Positions 38,161-46,543 of a stretch of 51,891 bases of DNA are shown here, in pieces; within the stretch, counting starts at the first letter, position 1; each line of letters begins with the position of its first letter. Under the pieces are notes generated by a model. The model was not told the origin of the DNA and did no database searches. It was given only the letters and a program-made list of their open reading frames with translations. Location of the stretch: the NCBI RefSeq assembly GCF_001437155.1, contig NZ_JQAR01000016.1, positions 1 through 51,891 on the forward strand, written 5' to 3'. Source of the DNA: Liquorilactobacillus mali. GTDB lineage: Bacteria; Bacillota; Bacilli; Lactobacillales; Lactobacillaceae. A program made the translations under genes and the position numbers.

Positions 38161-38611
38161 TTATTTTAACACCTCTTAGGATGCTCAATCTATTAGAGTA
38201 ACAGGTGTAAGGTCGTCCAAATGCAGAGTGGACTTAATTTTTGTGGAATACTCTTTGTGGGGCTTGTAATTTTACTTATACACTCAGTACTAATTATCTA
38301 GTTTCAAAATATTTCGGTATTTTGTGTACTATAATCTTAAACAATATTTAATAACACAGAATTGATTTCAAAAAGTTTAATTGATTCGTGGTTCTTAAAA
38401 CCTATCGTTAGAGATAGGTTTTTTGCGTACAAGATAATCTATTTTTTCCTGTTTTTATGTTGGAAAAACATTAGTATGACTACAAAAGAAATATCGTTAT
38501 TTACTTTTGATGTTTATGTTTAATGGAGATTACCTAATAAAAATATGATAGAATTACTCATTATTAATACAAAGTATAGGTCTTATCATTACGTAAAAAG
38601 GGGAGAAAGTT
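38161..38611. other. Intergenic region before the LysR gene
   Basis: No gene seen. A perfect terminator lies at 38397-38422 without a gene directly before it, so either the deacylase mRNA is ~240 nt longer than its gene or a short RNA is made here. The LysR promoter region follows. Confidence 0.4.
38397..38425 (+). terminator. Terminator upstream of the LysR gene
   Basis: AAAACCTATC and GATAGGTTTT form a 10-bp perfect stem with loop GTTAGA, followed by TT. Nearest + gene end is 237 bp upstream. Confidence 0.75.
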
Positions 38612-39523
38612 ATGTTTGAAAAACAAATTGCAGTTTTTTTAACCCTATGTGTTACAGGAAGTTTTACAAAAACGGCTGAAAGATTATTTATGAGTCAAGG
38701 TACTGTTTCGAAATATGTTGCTTTTCTTGAAAAAAAATTCGGTCCTTTGGTAAAAAGAAATAATAATGGTGTCGTAGTTAATGAACAAGGAAAATTAGTT
38801 TTTGACTATTTTATAAGAATGCTTGACCAAGAATTCCGAATGGAATATGAACTACTTCAGTTGGAGGAACCACATCCGACAGTAACAATATCTACAATTC
38901 CATCAATCGTTAACTATCATATTTTCCAAGTGATTAAAGAATTCCAAAAAAAATATCCAGCTATAGAGGTCCGCTTTCAAGAATCAAGCATGCGTGATTG
39001 GGAAAAAGATGTTTCGCCAGAGGAAGTTGATTTTTTATTTTTCCATCAAATGAGTGAACACATTAATTTATTATACTATGAAGCACTCGCTGGGGAGGAC
39101 GAAAAATTTGTAGTTGCGGTCAACAAGAATAGCTCATTAGCAACTTATCCTGAATTGCGGTTCAGAGATCTGGTAGATGAAAAATTCTTCTTATTGGACT
39201 GGAGTACGAAAAAAATTGATCCTATTTTAAACATCTTAAAAAGAGATTTTTCTAAATCTCAAATTTCATATATTGGTCAGAATTTGGATATGATTTTGTC
39301 ATCTGTTTCTTCAAATATGGGAGTTTCCATTTTACTTAAACGTATAATACCTGCTAAAGAAACGACTCAATTAAAGTTGGTACCTTTTAATGATTTAGAA
39401 GGTGGAAAGGTTGTACTAGTTAGACAACGGCAAGTGGATCATTCAAGGCCTGCTAATTTATTTTGGGAATTTGTAATGACAAATCAATTAGTAAAAAGTG
39501 GAATTCCAAAATGGAATAGTTAG
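38612..39523 (+). CDS. LysR family transcriptional regulator
   Basis: A 303-residue LysR-type activator: HTH FLTLCVTGSFTKTAERLFMSQGTVSKYVAFLEKKFG (9-44) and a PBP2-like co-inducer domain starting at VTISTIPSIVNYHIF. GGGGAGAAAG precedes the ATG. It lies directly before the permease-DUF917-HyuA-Pcp genes in the same direction, which makes it their likely regulator; a direct repeat GCCTTTAT-AAC-GCCTTTAT (39566-39584) lies between them. Confidence 0.87.
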   Translation: MFEKQIAVFLTLCVTGSFTKTAERLFMSQGTVSKYVAFLEKKFGPLVKRNNNGVVVNEQGKLVFDYFIRMLDQEFRMEYELLQLEEPHPTVTISTIPSIVNYHIFQVIKEFQKKYPAIEVRFQESSMRDWEKDVSPEEVDFLFFHQMSEHINLLYYEALAGEDEKFVVAVNKNSSLATYPELRFRDLVDEKFFLLDWSTKKIDPILNILKRDFSKSQISYIGQNLDMILSSVSSNMGVSILLKRIIPAKETTQLKLVPFNDLEGGKVVLVRQRQVDHSRPANLFWEFVMTNQLVKSGIPKWNS

Positions 39524-39565
39524 TTGCTTATTAGATAGCAATGAACAATTAATATTTAACTTAGT

Positions 39566-39584
39566 GCCTTTATAACGCCTTTAT
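39566..39584 (+). promoter_or_regulatory. Direct repeat GCCTTTAT x2 upstream of the NCS1 permease
   Basis: Two identical 8-bp units 3 bp apart, in the LysR-permease gap, a site where an activator could bind. The LysR T-N11-A form is not obvious. Confidence 0.35.
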
Positions 39585-39690
39585 TCGACTCGTGATTAAA
39601 ATTTGGAAATAAAACAATTGCAAATAAAATGGAATTGGATTATAAAAATGTAATGAGAAACGCTGGAATATTATAATTAATTTATTTTGT

Positions 39691-39721
39691 TTTTCCAAAT
39701 TTGAGAAAGAGGGTTTTCACC
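39691..39721 (+). promoter_or_regulatory. Leader/RBS block shared with the alcohol dehydrogenase gene
   Basis: TTTTCCAAATTT, then GAAAGAGGGT and TTCA, ends at the permease ATG. The same 29-bp block (26 identities) ends just before the ADH start at 45369. Contains the ribosome site AAAGAGGG. Confidence 0.5.
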
Positions 39722-41017
39722 ATGAATAAAGAAGAACAAAAAGTTGTTGCGCAGGTAGATGATTTTTCACTAAGTCGTGTTCCGATGGATAAGCGACAAC
39801 CATTATGGCAGGTTTTAGCCATTCAGATTGGTGGCTTTGTTGCTTTAAGTCAATTCATGTTGGGAGCCGAACTCGGCTATGGATTGGACTTTAAAACAGC
39901 AGTCATAGCTACAATTTTAGGTAGTGTGATTTTGGAGGTTATTGCATTTTACTTGGGACTAGCAGGACAAAAAGAAGGTCTACCAACAAGCCTTTTAGCT
40001 AAGTGGGCGGGCTTTGGTACTGTTGGATCTGCATTGGTGGGCGTTGCATTTGCTATTAGTCTTATCGGCTGGTTTGGTATTCAGAATTCAAATTTTGCTG
40101 CAGGCATTATTACTATTTCGGGTCAGCATTGGCCCTTTGGTGTGGTAGCAACAATAACTGGCTTATTGGTTACACTTTCAGTTATTTTTGGATTTAAGGG
40201 CTTGGCTTGGACGACCGTTATTTCGCTACCTTTGTTCTTAGTAATGATAATCATGGCAACAGCTAATATGTTAGAAGGACACAGCTTAAACACTCTGGTT
40301 TCTATGGCTGCTCCTAGTGCAAAATTAACATTAACGACTGCTATTACTTTAGTAACAGGAAACTTTATCATCGGTGCTATCATAATGCCCGATATTACAA
40401 GGTTTGCTAAAAGTGGGAAAGATGTTTTTTGGGTTACTGTTGTTGGTACAACAATTGGAGAATTAGGCGTAAATGTTTTAGGAGTCTTGATGGCTCACGC
40501 AACTGGAACAGAAGAAATTTTGCCAATTATCTACGAATTGACTGGTAGCTTAGGTATATTATTGGTCATTACGTCAACATTAAAGATCAACGATATTAAT
40601 TTATATTCGGCTAGCTTAGGATTTGTTAATTTTTTTAAACAGGTATTTAAAATTGATTTTAATCGTGGTGGTGTAACATTAGTTGTTGGAATTTTTGGAA
40701 CCATAGCTTCGGTTTTGGGAATTATTGATAAATTTGCAGGGTTTTTAACAATTTTAGGTATTGTGTTTCCACCAATAGCTGCAATTATTTTTATTGATTA
40801 TTACGTGCTGAAGAGAAGTCGTAAAATTTTAGATGAATCGCGTCGGACTGGAACATTGCCCAGTTACACAGAAACCATGCATCCTGTAACATTAGTAGCT
40901 TGGATTGCCGGAGCAGCTACGGGATATTTTGTGACATGGGGAGTACAATCCTTTACAGTATTAATCGTATCAAGTGTTGTCTATTACGTTGGTATGAAAA
41001 TATTTGATAAGAGATAA
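39722..41017 (+). CDS. NCS1 family permease (CodB/hydantoin permease-like)
   Basis: A 431-residue, ~12-TM transporter of the nucleobase:cation symporter-1 family, which takes cytosine, allantoin, hydantoins and other small ring amides. QPLWQVLAIQIGGFVALSQFMLGAELG and GLAGQKEGLPTSLLAKW belong to TM1-3, and IIMPDITRFAKSGKDVFW is the characteristic loop. ATG 39722 follows GAAAGAGGG. Family membership alone does not give the substrate; its neighbours (DUF917, HyuA, Pcp) point to a cyclic amide such as 5-oxoproline or a hydantoin rather than cytosine. Confidence 0.85.
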   Translation: MNKEEQKVVAQVDDFSLSRVPMDKRQPLWQVLAIQIGGFVALSQFMLGAELGYGLDFKTAVIATILGSVILEVIAFYLGLAGQKEGLPTSLLAKWAGFGTVGSALVGVAFAISLIGWFGIQNSNFAAGIITISGQHWPFGVVATITGLLVTLSVIFGFKGLAWTTVISLPLFLVMIIMATANMLEGHSLNTLVSMAAPSAKLTLTTAITLVTGNFIIGAIIMPDITRFAKSGKDVFWVTVVGTTIGELGVNVLGVLMAHATGTEEILPIIYELTGSLGILLVITSTLKINDINLYSASLGFVNFFKQVFKIDFNRGGVTLVVGIFGTIASVLGIIDKFAGFLTILGIVFPPIAAIIFIDYYVLKRSRKILDESRRTGTLPSYTETMHPVTLVAWIAGAATGYFVTWGVQSFTVLIVSSVVYYVGMKIFDKR

Positions 41018-41122
41018 AAAAGATTGTTCTAAAATCTAGAAATGTACTTCTTTATAAACGGACCATACACCGATTATTATGGTTATCAAAAATCTATTAA
41101 TACAAAGTTAGAAGGTTTATTT

Positions 41123-42229
41123 ATGACACAGATTAACATTGATGATATTAAACATATTGCAATAGGAGCGTCTCTTTTAGGTGCTGGAGGCGGTGGAAAT
41201 CCATATGTGGGCACTTTAATGGCAATTTCAGCTGTTCGTGAAAAAGGGCCAGTTCAATTAATTGAGCCAACTGACGTACCAGAAGATGCTTTAGTAATTT
41301 CTGCTTCAATGGTGGGGGCACCCGCAGTTTCATTAGAAAAATTCCCCAATGGAAATGAATATGATAAAGCTTTTCCTCTTTTAGAGGAAACATATGGGCA
41401 AAAAGCTTATGCTACTTACCCAATTGAGGCCGGTGGTATTAATTCTATGATTCCAATCATGGTCGCGGCTCGTCGAGGTCTTCCACTTGTTGATGTAGAT
41501 GGTATGGGACGTGCATTTCCAGAGCTGCAGATGACAACCTTTGCTATAGCAGGACATCCAGTTACACCAATAGTTATAACCGACGAACGTGGTAACAATG
41601 CATTAGTGAATACCATTGATGCCAATTGGGCCGAGAAAATTATCCGGACAATCACTGTTAAAATGGGAGCAACTTCATCAGTTGCGGGAGATGCGGTTCA
41701 TGGTAAAGATTTGGTTGCAAATGGTGTGACAGGAATTATTAGTTTAAGTAAACAAATCGGTGAACTAATTGACAGTGCTAGTGATTTTGAAACGGTTGAT
41801 GCTGCATTAACACAGCTATTGCAGATTACGAAGGGTTATAAATTATTTACTGGAAAAATTACTGATATTAATCATACGACAAAAGATGGTTTCAATTTTG
41901 GCGAAGTTACAATAGAAGGATTTGGTACATTTGAGCAGAGTTTCGGTTCTGTATCATTTCAAAATGAAAATATTATTTTTAAAGTCAATGATCAAGTTTT
42001 GGCTACAGCTCCTGATTTAATTACTTTAGTAGACGTGGACACCCTAATTCCAGTTACAAATGAGGAATTACGTTACGGTAAGCGAGTCAACGTGCTAGGT
42101 CTACCTGCAAATTCAAAATGGCGAACAGAGGTTGGTATTGCGACTGTTGGGCCACGGTACTTTGGTTATGATATAGATTATGTACCACTGGAGCAACTTG
42201 TAGAAAAGTATTCAAAGATGGGAGAATAA
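41123..42229 (+). CDS. DUF917 (S-methyl-thiohydantoin desulfurase-like) protein
   Basis: A 368-residue DUF917 protein: GASLLGAGGGGNPYVGTLMA (13-32, glycine loop), SMVGAPAVSLEK, EAGGINSMIPIMVAARRGLPLVDVDGMGRAFPELQM and AGHPVTPIV, then a beta-rich C-terminal half. The family name was revised after a member from ergothioneine breakdown that desulfurates a thiohydantoin; other members are fused to or sit beside HyuA proteins. ATG 41123 with GAAGG upstream; ATG 41042 gives an odd N-terminus. Probably acts on a five-membered ring amide together with the HyuA-type protein, starting 4 bp further on. Confidence 0.83.
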   Translation: MTQINIDDIKHIAIGASLLGAGGGGNPYVGTLMAISAVREKGPVQLIEPTDVPEDALVISASMVGAPAVSLEKFPNGNEYDKAFPLLEETYGQKAYATYPIEAGGINSMIPIMVAARRGLPLVDVDGMGRAFPELQMTTFAIAGHPVTPIVITDERGNNALVNTIDANWAEKIIRTITVKMGATSSVAGDAVHGKDLVANGVTGIISLSKQIGELIDSASDFETVDAALTQLLQITKGYKLFTGKITDINHTTKDGFNFGEVTIEGFGTFEQSFGSVSFQNENIIFKVNDQVLATAPDLITLVDVDTLIPVTNEELRYGKRVNVLGLPANSKWRTEVGIATVGPRYFGYDIDYVPLEQLVEKYSKMGE

Positions 42230-42232
42230 AAA

Positions 42233-43792
42233 ATGACTTATCAGATTGGTATTGATGTTGGAGGCACTAACACAGATGCCGTTATTTTAGATGAAAGACG
42301 TAAAGTGATTGCTGCTACCAAACAACACACCACAAAGGACATTCAAACTGGTATTTCAAATGCACTGCATGAGGTATTGAATCAGTCTGGTGTCAACCCA
42401 GATTATATTACAGATGTTATGTTGGGAACTACTCAAGCAACTAATGCCATAGTAGAAAGAAAAAGTTTAGCGAAAGTCGGTGTTATTCGCCTAGGATATC
42501 CTGCAACCGCCTCTATTGTACCGTTCACAGAATGGCCAAGTGACATGGTCTCACTTTTATCTGGTACTTATCAGCTAGTCCATGGTGGTTATGAATTTGA
42601 TGGCAATAATATTTCACCTATTGACTACAATGAGATTCGGAAGGTACTAAAAGGTTGGAAAGGAAAAGTGGACTCAATTGCTGTTGTTGGTGTTTTTTCT
42701 AGCTTAAATCCAGATCAAGAAGAAAGTGTAAAAAAACTAGCAACCGAAATTCTAGGTGACGTACCAATATCGATTTCATCGAAAATTGGTTCCCTTGGTC
42801 TGATTGCACGTGAAAATGCAACAATTTTAAATGCTTCCTTGTATAAAGTTATTAATAAAGTAGCAATTGGATTTGATAAAGCACTGCAAGATGAAGGTAT
42901 AAAAAAATGTAATAAATATCTTACTCAAAATGACGGTACATTGATGACCCTAGATTATGCAAAACTGTATCCAATATTAACCATCGGTTCTGGACCCACA
43001 AATAGTATTCGCGGAGCTGCTTATTTAGCTAAGATCAGAGAATCTCTTGTTTTGGATATTGGAGGCACAACATCTGATATTGGTGTTTTGATTAATGGTT
43101 TCCCACGAGAATCATCACTTGCAGTTAATGTCGGAGGAATCCAAACCAATTTTAGAATGCCTGATATTTTATCAGTTGGTCTTGGTGGTGGTTCTGTTGT
43201 CAGACAGTTGAGTAATGGAGAGGTGACTGTCGGGCCAGATTCTGTAGGATATAATATTACCCAAGAGGCATTAGTCTTTGGTGGTCAGACTACCACAGCA
43301 ACGGACATTGCAGTGGCAATGGGTGTAGCAAAAGTAGGAGATTCTAAGAAAGTCGATGGACTTGATAGAACGTTTGTAAAAAAAGCATTTAAGAAAATAT
43401 CAGAAATTTTGGAAGATGCCATTGATAAAATGAAAACCAGTGCCGAAAAAGTTGATTTAGTTCTAGTTGGAGGTGGTGCTATTATTGCACCGGATTATTT
43501 AAAGGGTGTTAGTCATATATTTAAGAATGAACAAGGAGGCGTGGCAAATGCAATAGGCGCGACTATTGCACAAATTGGTGGTCAATATGAAAAAATATAT
43601 CAGTATGCACAATATAAACGCGAAGAGGCATTGCGAGACACACAAAAATTGGCAAAGAAGCAGGCAATTCAAGCGGGAGCCGATCCTGAGAGTGTTCGTT
43701 TAGTAGATATTGAAGAGATGCCTCTTGCTTACGCACCGGGTGAAACAACAAAAGTCAAAGCAAAAGTAGTTGGGGACTTTATGAAGAAATAG
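42233..43792 (+). CDS. Hydantoinase/oxoprolinase family protein (HyuA-type)
   Basis: A 519-residue actin-fold ATPase of the HyuA/oxoprolinase A type: phosphate loop IGIDVGGTNTDAVILD (4-19), LGTTQATNAIVER, second ATP loop LVLDIGGTTSDIGVLI, and LSVGLGGGSVVR. It is shorter than HyuA of ATP-dependent N-methylhydantoinase (~680) or 5-oxoprolinase (~1280), and no HyuB gene lies here. ATP-driven ring opening of hydantoins or 5-oxoproline is the family activity. ATG start 3 bp after the DUF917 stop; same operon. Confidence 0.83.
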   Translation: MTYQIGIDVGGTNTDAVILDERRKVIAATKQHTTKDIQTGISNALHEVLNQSGVNPDYITDVMLGTTQATNAIVERKSLAKVGVIRLGYPATASIVPFTEWPSDMVSLLSGTYQLVHGGYEFDGNNISPIDYNEIRKVLKGWKGKVDSIAVVGVFSSLNPDQEESVKKLATEILGDVPISISSKIGSLGLIARENATILNASLYKVINKVAIGFDKALQDEGIKKCNKYLTQNDGTLMTLDYAKLYPILTIGSGPTNSIRGAAYLAKIRESLVLDIGGTTSDIGVLINGFPRESSLAVNVGGIQTNFRMPDILSVGLGGGSVVRQLSNGEVTVGPDSVGYNITQEALVFGGQTTTATDIAVAMGVAKVGDSKKVDGLDRTFVKKAFKKISEILEDAIDKMKTSAEKVDLVLVGGGAIIAPDYLKGVSHIFKNEQGGVANAIGATIAQIGGQYEKIYQYAQYKREEALRDTQKLAKKQAIQAGADPESVRLVDIEEMPLAYAPGETTKVKAKVVGDFMKK

Positions 43793-43805
43793 TAATTGAT
43801 TAATC

Positions 43806-43855
43806 TAGCAGCAAGCGTTACTCTCTTACGTTTTTGGTATTAAGAATTGCTGCTA
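43806..43855 (+). repeat. Inverted repeat between hyuA-like and pcp genes
   Basis: TAGCAGCAA (43806-43814) and TTGCTGCTA (43847-43855) pair over 9 bp across a 32-nt loop. No T run follows, so it is no plain terminator; an mRNA processing or stability element is possible. Confidence 0.45.
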
Positions 43856-43921
43856 AAACAGTCACTACGCTATATTTTAAACTAAGTTAAACTAGAAATT
43901 AATAGATAGGGGGAGCTAGAA

Positions 43922-44530
43922 ACGAAAATACTTCTGACAGGGTTTGCGCCATTCGGGGATGATAAGATTAATCCAGCCATTGAAACTGTCAAGATGATTC
44001 CTGATAAAATAGCACAAGCCGAAATTTTCAAACTAGAGTTACCAACCGTTTTTAATAAAAGTGCAGAAGTTGTACATGCAGCCATTTTAAAATATCACCC
44101 TGATGTTGTATTAAATATCGGACAGGCTGGTGGCAGGTATGGCATAACCCCAGAAAGAGTGGCAATTAATATGGATGATGCACGTATTCCTGATAATGAA
44201 GGTCAACAACCACTAGAAAAAGTTATTCATTCTGATGGAAAAACCGCGTATTTTTCTCAATTGCCTATTAAAAAAATAGTTGAAGCGATTAAAAGGGAGT
44301 CTTTACCTAGTTATGTTTCTACCACTGCTGGAACGTTTGTCTGCAACCATATTATGTATCAAGTTCAGTACATGATTGATAAGGAATTTAAGCACATTAA
44401 AGGTGGTTTTATTCATATACCATTTCTTCCTTCACAAGTAATTGATAGGCCGAATACCCCTTGTTTAAGTATTCGTGATGATGTATTGGGGATTACCAAA
44501 GCAATTGAAGTTATTGTTAAAGAAGCCTAA
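43922..44530 (+). CDS. pcp: Pyroglutamyl-peptidase I, apparent ACG start
   Basis: A 202-residue cysteine peptidase (C15) that removes N-terminal pyroglutamate from peptides, releasing 5-oxoproline. The triad is complete: Glu78 in [10 protein letters not shown], Cys141 in [10 protein letters not shown], His165 in [10 protein letters not shown], and substrate loop [16 protein letters not shown] is at 4-19. The reading frame begins with ACG 43922 well placed after GGGGGAG. An in-frame stop (43907-43909) bars upstream starts, and the next ATG (43994) would remove the substrate loop. Either a non-ATG start or an ATG-to-ACG mutation or read error. It is the last gene of the cyclic-amide cluster. 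Confidence 0.85.
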
Positions 44531-45368: not shown

Positions 45369-46543
45369 ATGGTTGAACGCAGTTATGATTTTTTGGTACC
45401 TAGTGTTAATTTTTTCGGTCCAGGTGTGATCAGTAAGATTGGTCAGCGTGCACGAATGCTTTTAATATGAAGAAACCGGTAATCGTTACTGATAAATTCT
45501 TAGAAAATTTAGAGGATGGAGCTGTACAACAAACTTTAAGTTCCTTAAAGAAAGCTGGAGTAGATTATGTAATCTATAATGGGGTTGAACCTAATCCAAA
45601 GATTCACAATATAGAGGCTGTAAAAAAATTATACCAAGAGTCTGGTGCTGATTCTATCATCACAGTAGGTGGCGGCTCGGCTCATGATACCGGTAAAGGT
45701 GCTGGAATAATTCTTACAAATGGTAATGATATTACCAAATTGGCAGGAATTGAAACACTTGATAAAGCTCTGCCACCATTAATCGCGGTTAATACTACTG
45801 CTGGGACCGGATCCGAATTAACCCGTCATGCAGTTATCACTAATGAAGAAACACATTTAAAGTTTGTGGTTGTTTCATGGCGCAATATTCCACTGGTTTC
45901 TTTCAACGATCCGACATTGATGTTAGATGTTCCTAAAGGTTTGACTGCAGCAACTGGTATGGATGCTTTTGTACAAGCAATTGAACCATATGTCTCTGTT
46001 GACCATAACCCAATTACAGACTCTCAGTGCATTCAGGCAATTAAATTAATTGAGACTTCCTTACGTGAAGCTGTTGCAAATGGTCATAATCTTGATGCAC
46101 GAACTAAGATGGTTGAAGCTGAGATGCTGGCTGGAATGGCGTTTAACAATGCAAATCTTGGCTATGTCCACGCAATGGCTCATCAGTTGGGTGGTCAGTA
46201 CGATGCTCCTCATGGTGTCTGCTGTGCACTATTGCTACCCTATGTTGAAGAATATAATATAATTGCTTGTCCTGACCGTTTTGCACAGCTAGCTAAATTT
46301 ATGGGTGAAAACACAGACGGTTTATCAACCCGTGATGCAGCAGAATTAGCAATTAAGGCAATGAAACAGATGTCTGAAGATGTTGGTATTCCTAAATCAA
46401 TTAAAGAAATCGGTGCAAAGCCTGAGGACTTTTCTTTAATGGCTGAGAATGCTTTGAAAGATGGCAATGCCTTCTCTAATCCGCGCAAGGGAACTAAAGA
46501 AGACATCATTCGCATCTTTCAAGCAGCTTATGATGCTAGTTAG
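45369..46543 (+). pseudogene. Iron-containing alcohol dehydrogenase, frameshifted near residue 33
   Basis: ATG 45369 gives MVERSYDFLVPSVNFFGPGVISKIGQRARM and then stops at 45468-45470. The rest of the protein continues in another frame from KKPVIVTDKFLENL to 46543 (ca. 390 residues in all); one missing base near 45455-45466 explains it. The group III alcohol dehydrogenase motifs are intact: VGGGSAHDTGKG, NTTAGTGSELTRHAVI, DAFVQAIEPY, MAHQLGGQYDAPHG (iron ligands). An internal start at ATG 45467 has no ribosome site. Ethanol, butanol or propanediol reduction is typical. If the frameshift is real, the N-terminal Rossmann strand is lost. Confidence 0.82.

Follow-up and report, generated by a model that had tools for sequence, protein, structure and literature searches.

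A conserved permease–DUF917–HyuA cassette in Liquorilactobacillus mali as a candidate system for ring-amide utilisation

In the window analysed here, a 51,891 nt stretch of the food-associated lactic acid bacterium Liquorilactobacillus mali (contig NZ_JQAR01000016.1), genes for a LysR-type regulator, an NCS1-family permease, a DUF917 protein, a HyuA-type ATPase and a pyroglutamyl peptidase (Pcp) follow each other. A first-pass annotation had read these five genes as one locus for the import and opening of a cyclic amide, either peptide-derived pyroglutamate or a (thio)hydantoin. Which of the genes belong together, do HyuA and DUF917 form one enzyme, and which ring would they open? We propose, with a probability of roughly one half, a LysR-controlled ring-amide utilisation cassette that would combine an NCS1 carrier with a two-part HyuA–DUF917 hydrolase. 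Import and ATP-driven opening of a ring amide found indirect support, pyroglutamate as the substrate did not.

Results

The conserved unit comprises permease, DUF917 and HyuA

Relatives were collected by DUF917 alone, so that the selection did not require HyuA, the permease or Pcp. A first set contained 101 loci (80 named loci, 12 plasmid loci and 9 genome regions); adding 40 Bacillota regions and 2 Liquorilactobacillus regions gave 143 loci, which collapsed to 97 clusters from bacteria and archaea after dereplication at 90% DUF917 identity. In the first set, DUF917 and HyuA were adjacent on one strand in 95 loci, and some of the six others end at contig edges. An NCS1 gene lay within 2.5 kb in 52 of the 101 loci and Pcp in two, both from Liquorilactobacillus. 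The counts for the 97 clusters consider one representative per cluster and a distance of up to 4 kb from the core genes; they are lower bounds, since each family was represented by just one or two reference sequences. By this measure the DUF917–HyuA pair was present in 88 clusters and NCS1 in 56, followed by the ATPase of peptide-type ABC importers (26), PucR (22), family-5 solute-binding proteins (16) and Asp/Glu/hydantoin racemases (16). HyuB was found in three clusters, Pcp and PxpA in one each and PxpC in none. PucR often takes the regulatory role in relatives that LysR has in the window.

Within the Lactobacillales, DUF917 occurs in 31 of 295 genomes. Permease, DUF917 and HyuA, each in one frame, stood together in 27 of 30 loci, counting the window's own locus, whose HyuA is cut off by the locus end. 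The exceptions were L024 with HyuA in two frames, the fragmented L029, and L030 with DUF917 only. Because the arrangement recurs across phyla and NCS1 genes occur at all in just 72 of 198 Lactobacillales genomes, this linkage exceeds what chance would produce. The cassette is an accessory trait, given that DUF917 is present in only 4 of 14 Liquorilactobacillus genomes and on 130 plasmid records. The conserved unit is thus permease–DUF917–HyuA, narrower than the five genes proposed at first: the conservation that had been expected in relatives holds for these three genes and does not extend to Pcp.

Several loci showed further arrangements. In L083–L087, L089, L093 and L098 (Chloroflexi/Chloroflexota or Anaerolineae), one HyuA gene is accompanied by four or five DUF917 genes. 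L144–L150, L154 and L177 have a sigma-54 activator gene between divergent gene sets that both contain DUF917, which suggests shared control. Near DUF917 in L053, L059, L060 and L061, a protein resembling the fused nitroreductase–DUF6092 protein of L060 is encoded (the domains were checked in L060); this type of fusion resembles the fused cyclodipeptide oxidases described in the relevant section of PMC11055893.

HyuA and DUF917 as a candidate two-part enzyme

The HyuA of the window carries both phosphate-binding motifs listed in PMC8453981, as DVGGTNTD (P1) and DIGGT (P2). Among 103 HyuA open reading frames (ORFs) of the relatives, 86 matched both exact patterns, DxGGTxTD and DxGGT, one matched P1 only and 16 neither. 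Structure matches to CapA, Apc, acetone carboxylase and N-methylhydantoinase place HyuA in the ASKHA fold. The structure alignment to CapA and Apc mostly tests the HyuA part and is uninformative on other DUF917 folds. It ends at residue 614 of CapA (691 modelled) and at residue 579 of Apc chain b (649 modelled), and the C-terminal barrel of Apc alpha' comprises residues 590–660 according to the structural part of PMC5214803. The C-terminal beta-barrel is therefore absent from the window's HyuA, which stops at 519 amino acids, with the alignment ending before the barrel region. This short form is the rule beside DUF917: of 92 DUF917-adjacent HyuA ORFs in the 97 representatives, 87 measured at most 600 amino acids from stop to stop and two more than 640, some of the 92 being shortened by contig ends.

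Is there a HyuB partner? No match to HyuB (PF02538) was found in the whole assembly. Pairwise distances of DUF917 and HyuA were correlated (0.69 over 88 pairs), and in the 53 loci with a permease this correlation was higher between the two (0.77) than between either of them and NCS1 (0.41 and 0.43). None of 999 Mantel shuffles reached the observed values, from which common descent was not removed. Near-universal adjacency, correlated divergence and the missing HyuB led us to DUF917 as the second subunit: our best reading is that DUF917 stands in for HyuB in a two-part ATP-dependent ring-amide hydrolase. The first-pass suggestion of such an enzyme is hence indirectly strengthened, and the complex itself is a prediction.

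Three results weaken or limit this interpretation. The adenosine motif GxxPGP of HyuA/CapA-type enzymes is absent from the window's HyuA and occurs in one of the 103 HyuA ORFs. A single AlphaFold2 run with the joined chains returned two well-folded parts (pLDDT 89.4) with a pTM of 0.68, a value that does not fix the contact between them. Natural HyuA–DUF917 fusions were not found among the ORFs of the 101 loci.

Compared with the CapAB/HyuAB family, as described in the relevant parts of PMC8453981 and PMC5214803, the pair has in common an ATPase of the ASKHA fold that carries DxGGTxTD and DxGGT, and it would share cyclic-amide chemistry. It differs in the short HyuA without beta-barrel or GxxPGP and in the partner, which is HyuB/CapB with an Asp/His metal site there and DUF917 here. 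Among PDB entries, HyuA is closest in sequence (5e-27) to N-methylhydantoinase (PDB 7hk5, 9h03), which is also its top Foldseek match, a single chain of 1288 residues, in contrast to HyuA plus DUF917.

We envisage the following sequence of steps. The NCS1 carrier would import a small amino-acid-derived ring amide. HyuA would then use ATP to phosphorylate the ring carbonyl (lactim oxygen), the reaction that has been proposed for CapA and 5-oxoprolinase; we infer this step because the phosphate motifs and the fold are conserved. The neighbouring DUF917 may complete the hydrolysis in place of HyuB/CapB, perhaps by using an acidic core of the invariant residues E102, D124, D126, E282 and D298 (numbered from the ATG at 41123). 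Ring opening would yield a linear dipeptide or an N-carbamoyl amino acid, which would be broken down by the usual pathways for peptides or amino acids. We considered and rejected a metal site built on His in DUF917, as no His was found among the columns conserved to at least 90%.

Neighbouring genes point to cyclic dipeptides or 5-substituted hydantoins

For the substrate class, cyclic dipeptides and 5-substituted hydantoins are about even, with a slight lean towards cyclic dipeptides. These two classes are suggested by neighbouring genes, mostly outside the Lactobacillales. In five of the 40 Bacillota regions, from three families, a gene for an M24 peptidase lies 3′ of HyuA–DUF917. The order is HyuA–DUF917–M24–DUF917 in L167, L168, L170 and L171, and also in L173, where the last DUF917 is only a fragment. 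The nearest NCBIfam model for the L168 peptidase is the Xaa-Pro dipeptidase PepQ (276 bits, cut-off 630). A proline racemase gene (Pfam 8.3e-126) adjoins the L173 operon; in L167 one is located 6.8 kb away. In L153, genes for a peptide ABC importer and for an AlbA/AlbB-type cyclodipeptide oxidase (8uc3: 2e-29 and 8.5e-10) adjoin the HyuA–DUF917 pair. Two cassettes in Enterococcus raffinosus come after genes for D-proline reductase and proline racemase, the racemase being 4.2 kb away, and in Arsenophonus the permease gene overlaps a gene for an M15 metallopeptidase. The passage of PMC11055893 on the surroundings of cyclodipeptide oxidases had already pointed out DUF917 there, together with racemases, peptide importers and peptidases, and PMC6061476 states, in the part that treats 5-oxoprolinase annotations, that many genes so annotated could encode lactamases or cyclic dipeptide hydrolases.

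On these grounds HyuA–DUF917 might use ATP to hydrolyse cyclic dipeptides (2,5-diketopiperazines), with DUF917 replacing HyuB, in bacteria, archaea and on plasmids, an assignment that we regard as tentative. It is weakened by the DUF917 fragment in L173, by the distances of the racemase genes and by the null matches in Lactobacillales. Several observations count against it. Dipeptide-type neighbours are minorities, with M24 peptidases and cyclodipeptide-oxidase-like proteins in four of the 97 clusters each and proline racemase in one. In 22 Lactobacillales loci there was no match to the reference proteins for Asp/Glu-type racemase, M24, the oxidase, M15, Pcp or Pxp; an ABC ATPase gene was located about 5 kb away in two, and proline racemase was restricted to E. 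raffinosus. HyuB and a long HyuA are also encoded in the L167 and L168 regions, so the M24 peptidase there could serve that enzyme. Finally, 19 of 30 cassette genomes have a match above the cut-off of the HyuC-like carbamoylase model TIGR01879, that of the window among them with 306 bits, which favours hydantoins. For this genome we therefore no longer count a missing carbamoylase against hydantoins.

The strongest alternative is that NCS1 imports a 5-substituted hydantoin as Mhp1 does, that HyuA–DUF917 opens its ring to give an N-carbamoyl amino acid, and that a HyuC-type carbamoylase encoded elsewhere in the genome finishes the reaction. It shares the tentative standing of the cyclic dipeptide assignment and draws on the 16 clusters with an Asp/Glu/hydantoin racemase and the 22 with PucR, on the carbamoylase matches and on the similarity of HyuA to N-methylhydantoinase. 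Conversely, the carbamoylase family remained below the cut-off in 11 of the 30 cassette genomes, a single M20 reference was found near the pair in just one of the 97 loci, and the 22 Lactobacillales loci had no hydantoin-type racemase. TIGR01879 may also cover allantoate-type hydrolases, which would reduce the weight of its matches.

DUF917 as an enzyme acting alone

A doubtful but still relevant alternative takes DUF917 and HyuA as two sequential enzymes, DUF917 acting alone and HyuA acting on its product. The Pfam domains of DUF917 are now named S-Me-THD_N and S-Me-THD_C (PF06032 and PF20906; 1.5e-56 and 1.4e-60), and NCBIfam names DUF917-family enzymes thiohydantoin and S-methyl-thiohydantoin desulfurases. 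DUF917 matches this family over most of its length, and these models imply no ATPase partner. Its score of 99.7 bits is, however, far below the cut-offs of 450 and 440 for NF058532 and NF058529 (S-methyl-thiohydantoin and thiohydantoin desulfurase). The thiohydantoin half of the earlier (thio)hydantoin suggestion is hence disfavoured, and the hydantoin half stays as a serious rival.

Sequential action would also fit the eight loci with four or five DUF917 genes per single HyuA and the DUF917 copies found in several loci without a nearby HyuA. Position 280 (279 in an alternative numbering) is Gln in 97 of 99 HyuA-adjacent copies; where the locus has no HyuA, 11 of 14 copies carry Lys. On the other side stand the adjacency of the pair in 88 of 97 clusters and the correlation of 0.77. 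To our knowledge, the studied HyuA-type enzymes need a HyuB-type subunit or domain, which also counts against two independent enzymes.

We considered the Lys/Gln difference at position 280 as a mark of the HyuA partner and retained it only as a lead, since the solved protein 2o3i has Gln. The copies in L174, L175 and L178–L182 are divergent, lack HyuA in the region and have Lys at this position.

The permease is unlikely to be a CodB-like cytosine transporter

The permease belongs to the NCS1 family (Transp_cyt_pur, 84 bits versus a gathering score of 23.5). CodB (7qoa) is its only sequence relative in the PDB (7e-26), and it scored 177 bits with the CodB equivalog model of NCBIfam, below the cut-off of 326. 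With CodB and Mhp1, as described in the relevant parts of PMC9379551 and PMC4195764, it has in common the NCS1 family, the aromatic sandwich and an Asn on TM8. Equivalents of CodB Trp108, Phe204 and Asn280 are kept. In contrast, Gln105 is replaced by Leu114 and the Thr pair of the Na2 site by Lys288-Ile289 (40583–40588 in the window). Among 50 cassette permeases, counting that of the window, Trp and Asn were conserved in all 50, and the Gln105 equivalent was never Gln. Lys occupies the Na2-site position in 21 of the 50, which may mean sodium-independent transport.

At position 121, cassette permeases have Gln (40 of 50) or Glu (10 of 50). An Mhp1-like Gln121 was tried as a hydantoin signature and discarded: the control consisted of the 30 best-scoring NCS1 loci unlinked to the cassette, 29 with a usable ORF, and 23 of these 29 proteins have Gln as well, which detracts from the ring-amide interpretation. 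The Trp/Gln/Asn pattern as a whole is common in the control; the residues therefore speak against CodB-like cytosine binding but name no substrate.

Next to the pair, peptide-type ABC importers and NCS1 tend to substitute for one another. Among 92 loci, both were present in 4, only ABC in 20, only NCS1 in 39 and neither in 29 (p 7e-4 for mutual exclusion, relatedness not corrected). Both would fit a small peptide-like ring.

An unlikely alternative is nucleobase or dihydropyrimidine salvage, in which the permease would transport cytosine, uracil, dihydrouracil or a product of purine breakdown, whose ring the pair would open. Besides the NCS1 family and CodB as the sole sequence relative in the PDB, it could account for the PucR-type regulators, for the deposition of the HyuA relative 9h03 under a dihydrouridine title and for a molybdopterin-dehydrogenase-type FAD protein in 6 of 92 neighbourhoods. 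Yet Gln105, needed for cytosine in CodB according to the binding-site analysis in PMC9379551, is replaced in all 50 cassette permeases, peptide-type ABC importers can substitute for the permease, and there was no pyrimidine-pathway gene among 30 neighbour proteins typed by Pfam. A cytosine-specific permease, which the first-pass annotation had considered damaging to its proposal, is made unlikely by these residues if it is thought of as CodB-like.

Pcp and 5-oxoproline are not supported as parts of the cassette

A block shared with strain UCMA15818 at 97.6% identity ends 2 bp past the HyuA stop codon (blastn). Outside of it, identity was 86% for Pcp, 88% for the next piece and 79% for the upstream NhaP-type antiporter gene, and the HyuA–Pcp intergenic sequences of the two strains are unlike each other. 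Since the block stops at the end of HyuA while Pcp is only 86% identical, LysR, NCS1, DUF917 and HyuA appear to have moved as one unit without Pcp.

The listed Pcp ORF (ATG at 43994) aligns with Peptidase_C15 only from profile position 29, that is, its start lies inside the domain. The homologous frame begins further upstream, at 43922, with ACG rather than ATG, GTG or TTG, preceded by a GGGGGAG stretch. A complete N-terminus with a standard start codon is thus absent from the window; the copy in UCMA15818 is intact with a standard start.

The same genome has its own enzyme for 5-oxoproline, as pxpB-pxpC-accB-accC-DUF1445-pxpA lie together on another contig (L131:20-4879), followed by a gene for an NRAMP-like transporter; pxpA was found by profile, pxpB, pxpC and the other operon genes were recognised from their translations. 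At the DUF917–HyuA locus, pxpA, pxpB and pxpC were not found. The earlier statement that HyuB and PxpABC are missing consequently holds for HyuB throughout the assembly and for PxpABC at this locus, not for PxpABC in the genome, an outcome that the first-pass annotation had itself counted as speaking against its proposal. The ACG codon and the PxpABC operon leave no basis for a pyroglutamate pathway centred on HyuA–DUF917.

That Pcp frees pyroglutamate and HyuA–DUF917 opens the 5-oxoproline ring, as first proposed, is therefore highly improbable. In its favour, Pcp lies 3′ of HyuA in the two Liquorilactobacillus lineages with this gene, all three Pcp-bearing genomes among the 14 of the genus also have DUF917, and none of the 26 cassette genomes from other genera (of 30) has PxpA. 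Against it, Pcp was found in one of 97 clusters and, in the window, lacks a standard start and lies outside the shared block, and the genome's own operon is at hand. PxpA is moreover rare in Lactobacillales anyway (17 of 295 genomes; 1 of 31 with DUF917), and the idea that HyuA–DUF917 replaces PxpA in cassette genomes was rejected for want of any association.

Layout of the locus

All five genes were confirmed on the forward strand at the positions first given for them, with families assigned by Pfam (Table 1). The intergenic gaps from LysR to Pcp are 198, 105, 3 and 129–201 bp, confirming the 3 bp reported between DUF917 and HyuA; with the ATG at 41042 as the DUF917 start, the gap to NCS1 shrinks to 24 bp. 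The Glu, Cys and His of the reported Pcp triad are visible in the sequence as well, in line with the family motif. A scan for promoters and terminators yielded promoter-like counts close to the shuffle mean and carries no weight.

3′ of Pcp, the gene for an iron-dependent alcohol dehydrogenase (45370–46543) is split, its N-terminal part being in a different frame from the rest. Contig L133, with 13,333 bp 99.99% identical to the window, has an alcohol dehydrogenase ORF of equal extent.

Table 1 Features of the locus in the window.
Feature	Position	Strand	Evidence or remark
LysR-type regulator	38612..39523	+	Pfam LysR_substrate 3.8e-23, HTH_1 4.1e-12
NCS1-family permease, probable ring-amide importer	39722..41017	+	Transp_cyt_pur 1.3e-23; alternative TTG start 39701
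DUF917 / S-Me-THD-like protein, 368 amino acids, proposed second subunit replacing HyuB	41123..42229	+	Alternative ATG 41042
Short HyuA-type ATPase, 519 amino acids	42233..43792	+	Hydant_A_N 3e-40, Hydantoinase_A 3.7e-32
Pyroglutamyl peptidase (Peptidase_C15) frame	43922..44530	+	Pfam 2.7e-66; neighbour, cassette membership unsupported
Block of 97.6% identity shared with strain UCMA15818, likely exchange unit	38520..43794		blastn

Discussion

The cassette is already known by name to annotators, as the trio is listed for L. rhamnosus in PMC7513527 and appears in PMC12915319 as C. difficile CDR20291_1615-1617 (permease, DUF917, hydantoinase), in both cases without a function in the respective listing; no described function was found in the literature searched. 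Related to it are the cyclodipeptide-oxidase clusters with DUF917 of PMC11055893, in which genes for DUF917, racemases and peptide ABC importers likewise lie near one another. The section on these clusters suggests that DUF917 proteins are hydantoinases and contains neither a HyuA partner nor an NCS1–DUF917–HyuA cassette. In 2013, the relevant section of PMC3852281 called the enzymes that open cyclic dipeptides unclear and left open those of its own cyclic-dipeptide-cleaving strains.

If the proposed two-part hydrolase is correct, a pair now labelled "DUF917" and "hydantoinase/oxoprolinase" in bacteria, archaea and on plasmids would receive one function, and the ATP-dependent lactamase family would gain a second architecture without HyuB. 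Should cyclic dipeptides be the substrate, the pair would be a candidate enzyme for their opening, and an NCS1 or peptide ABC importer together with Xaa-Pro-type peptidases would constitute a general pathway for breaking down cyclic dipeptides, including those that contain proline.

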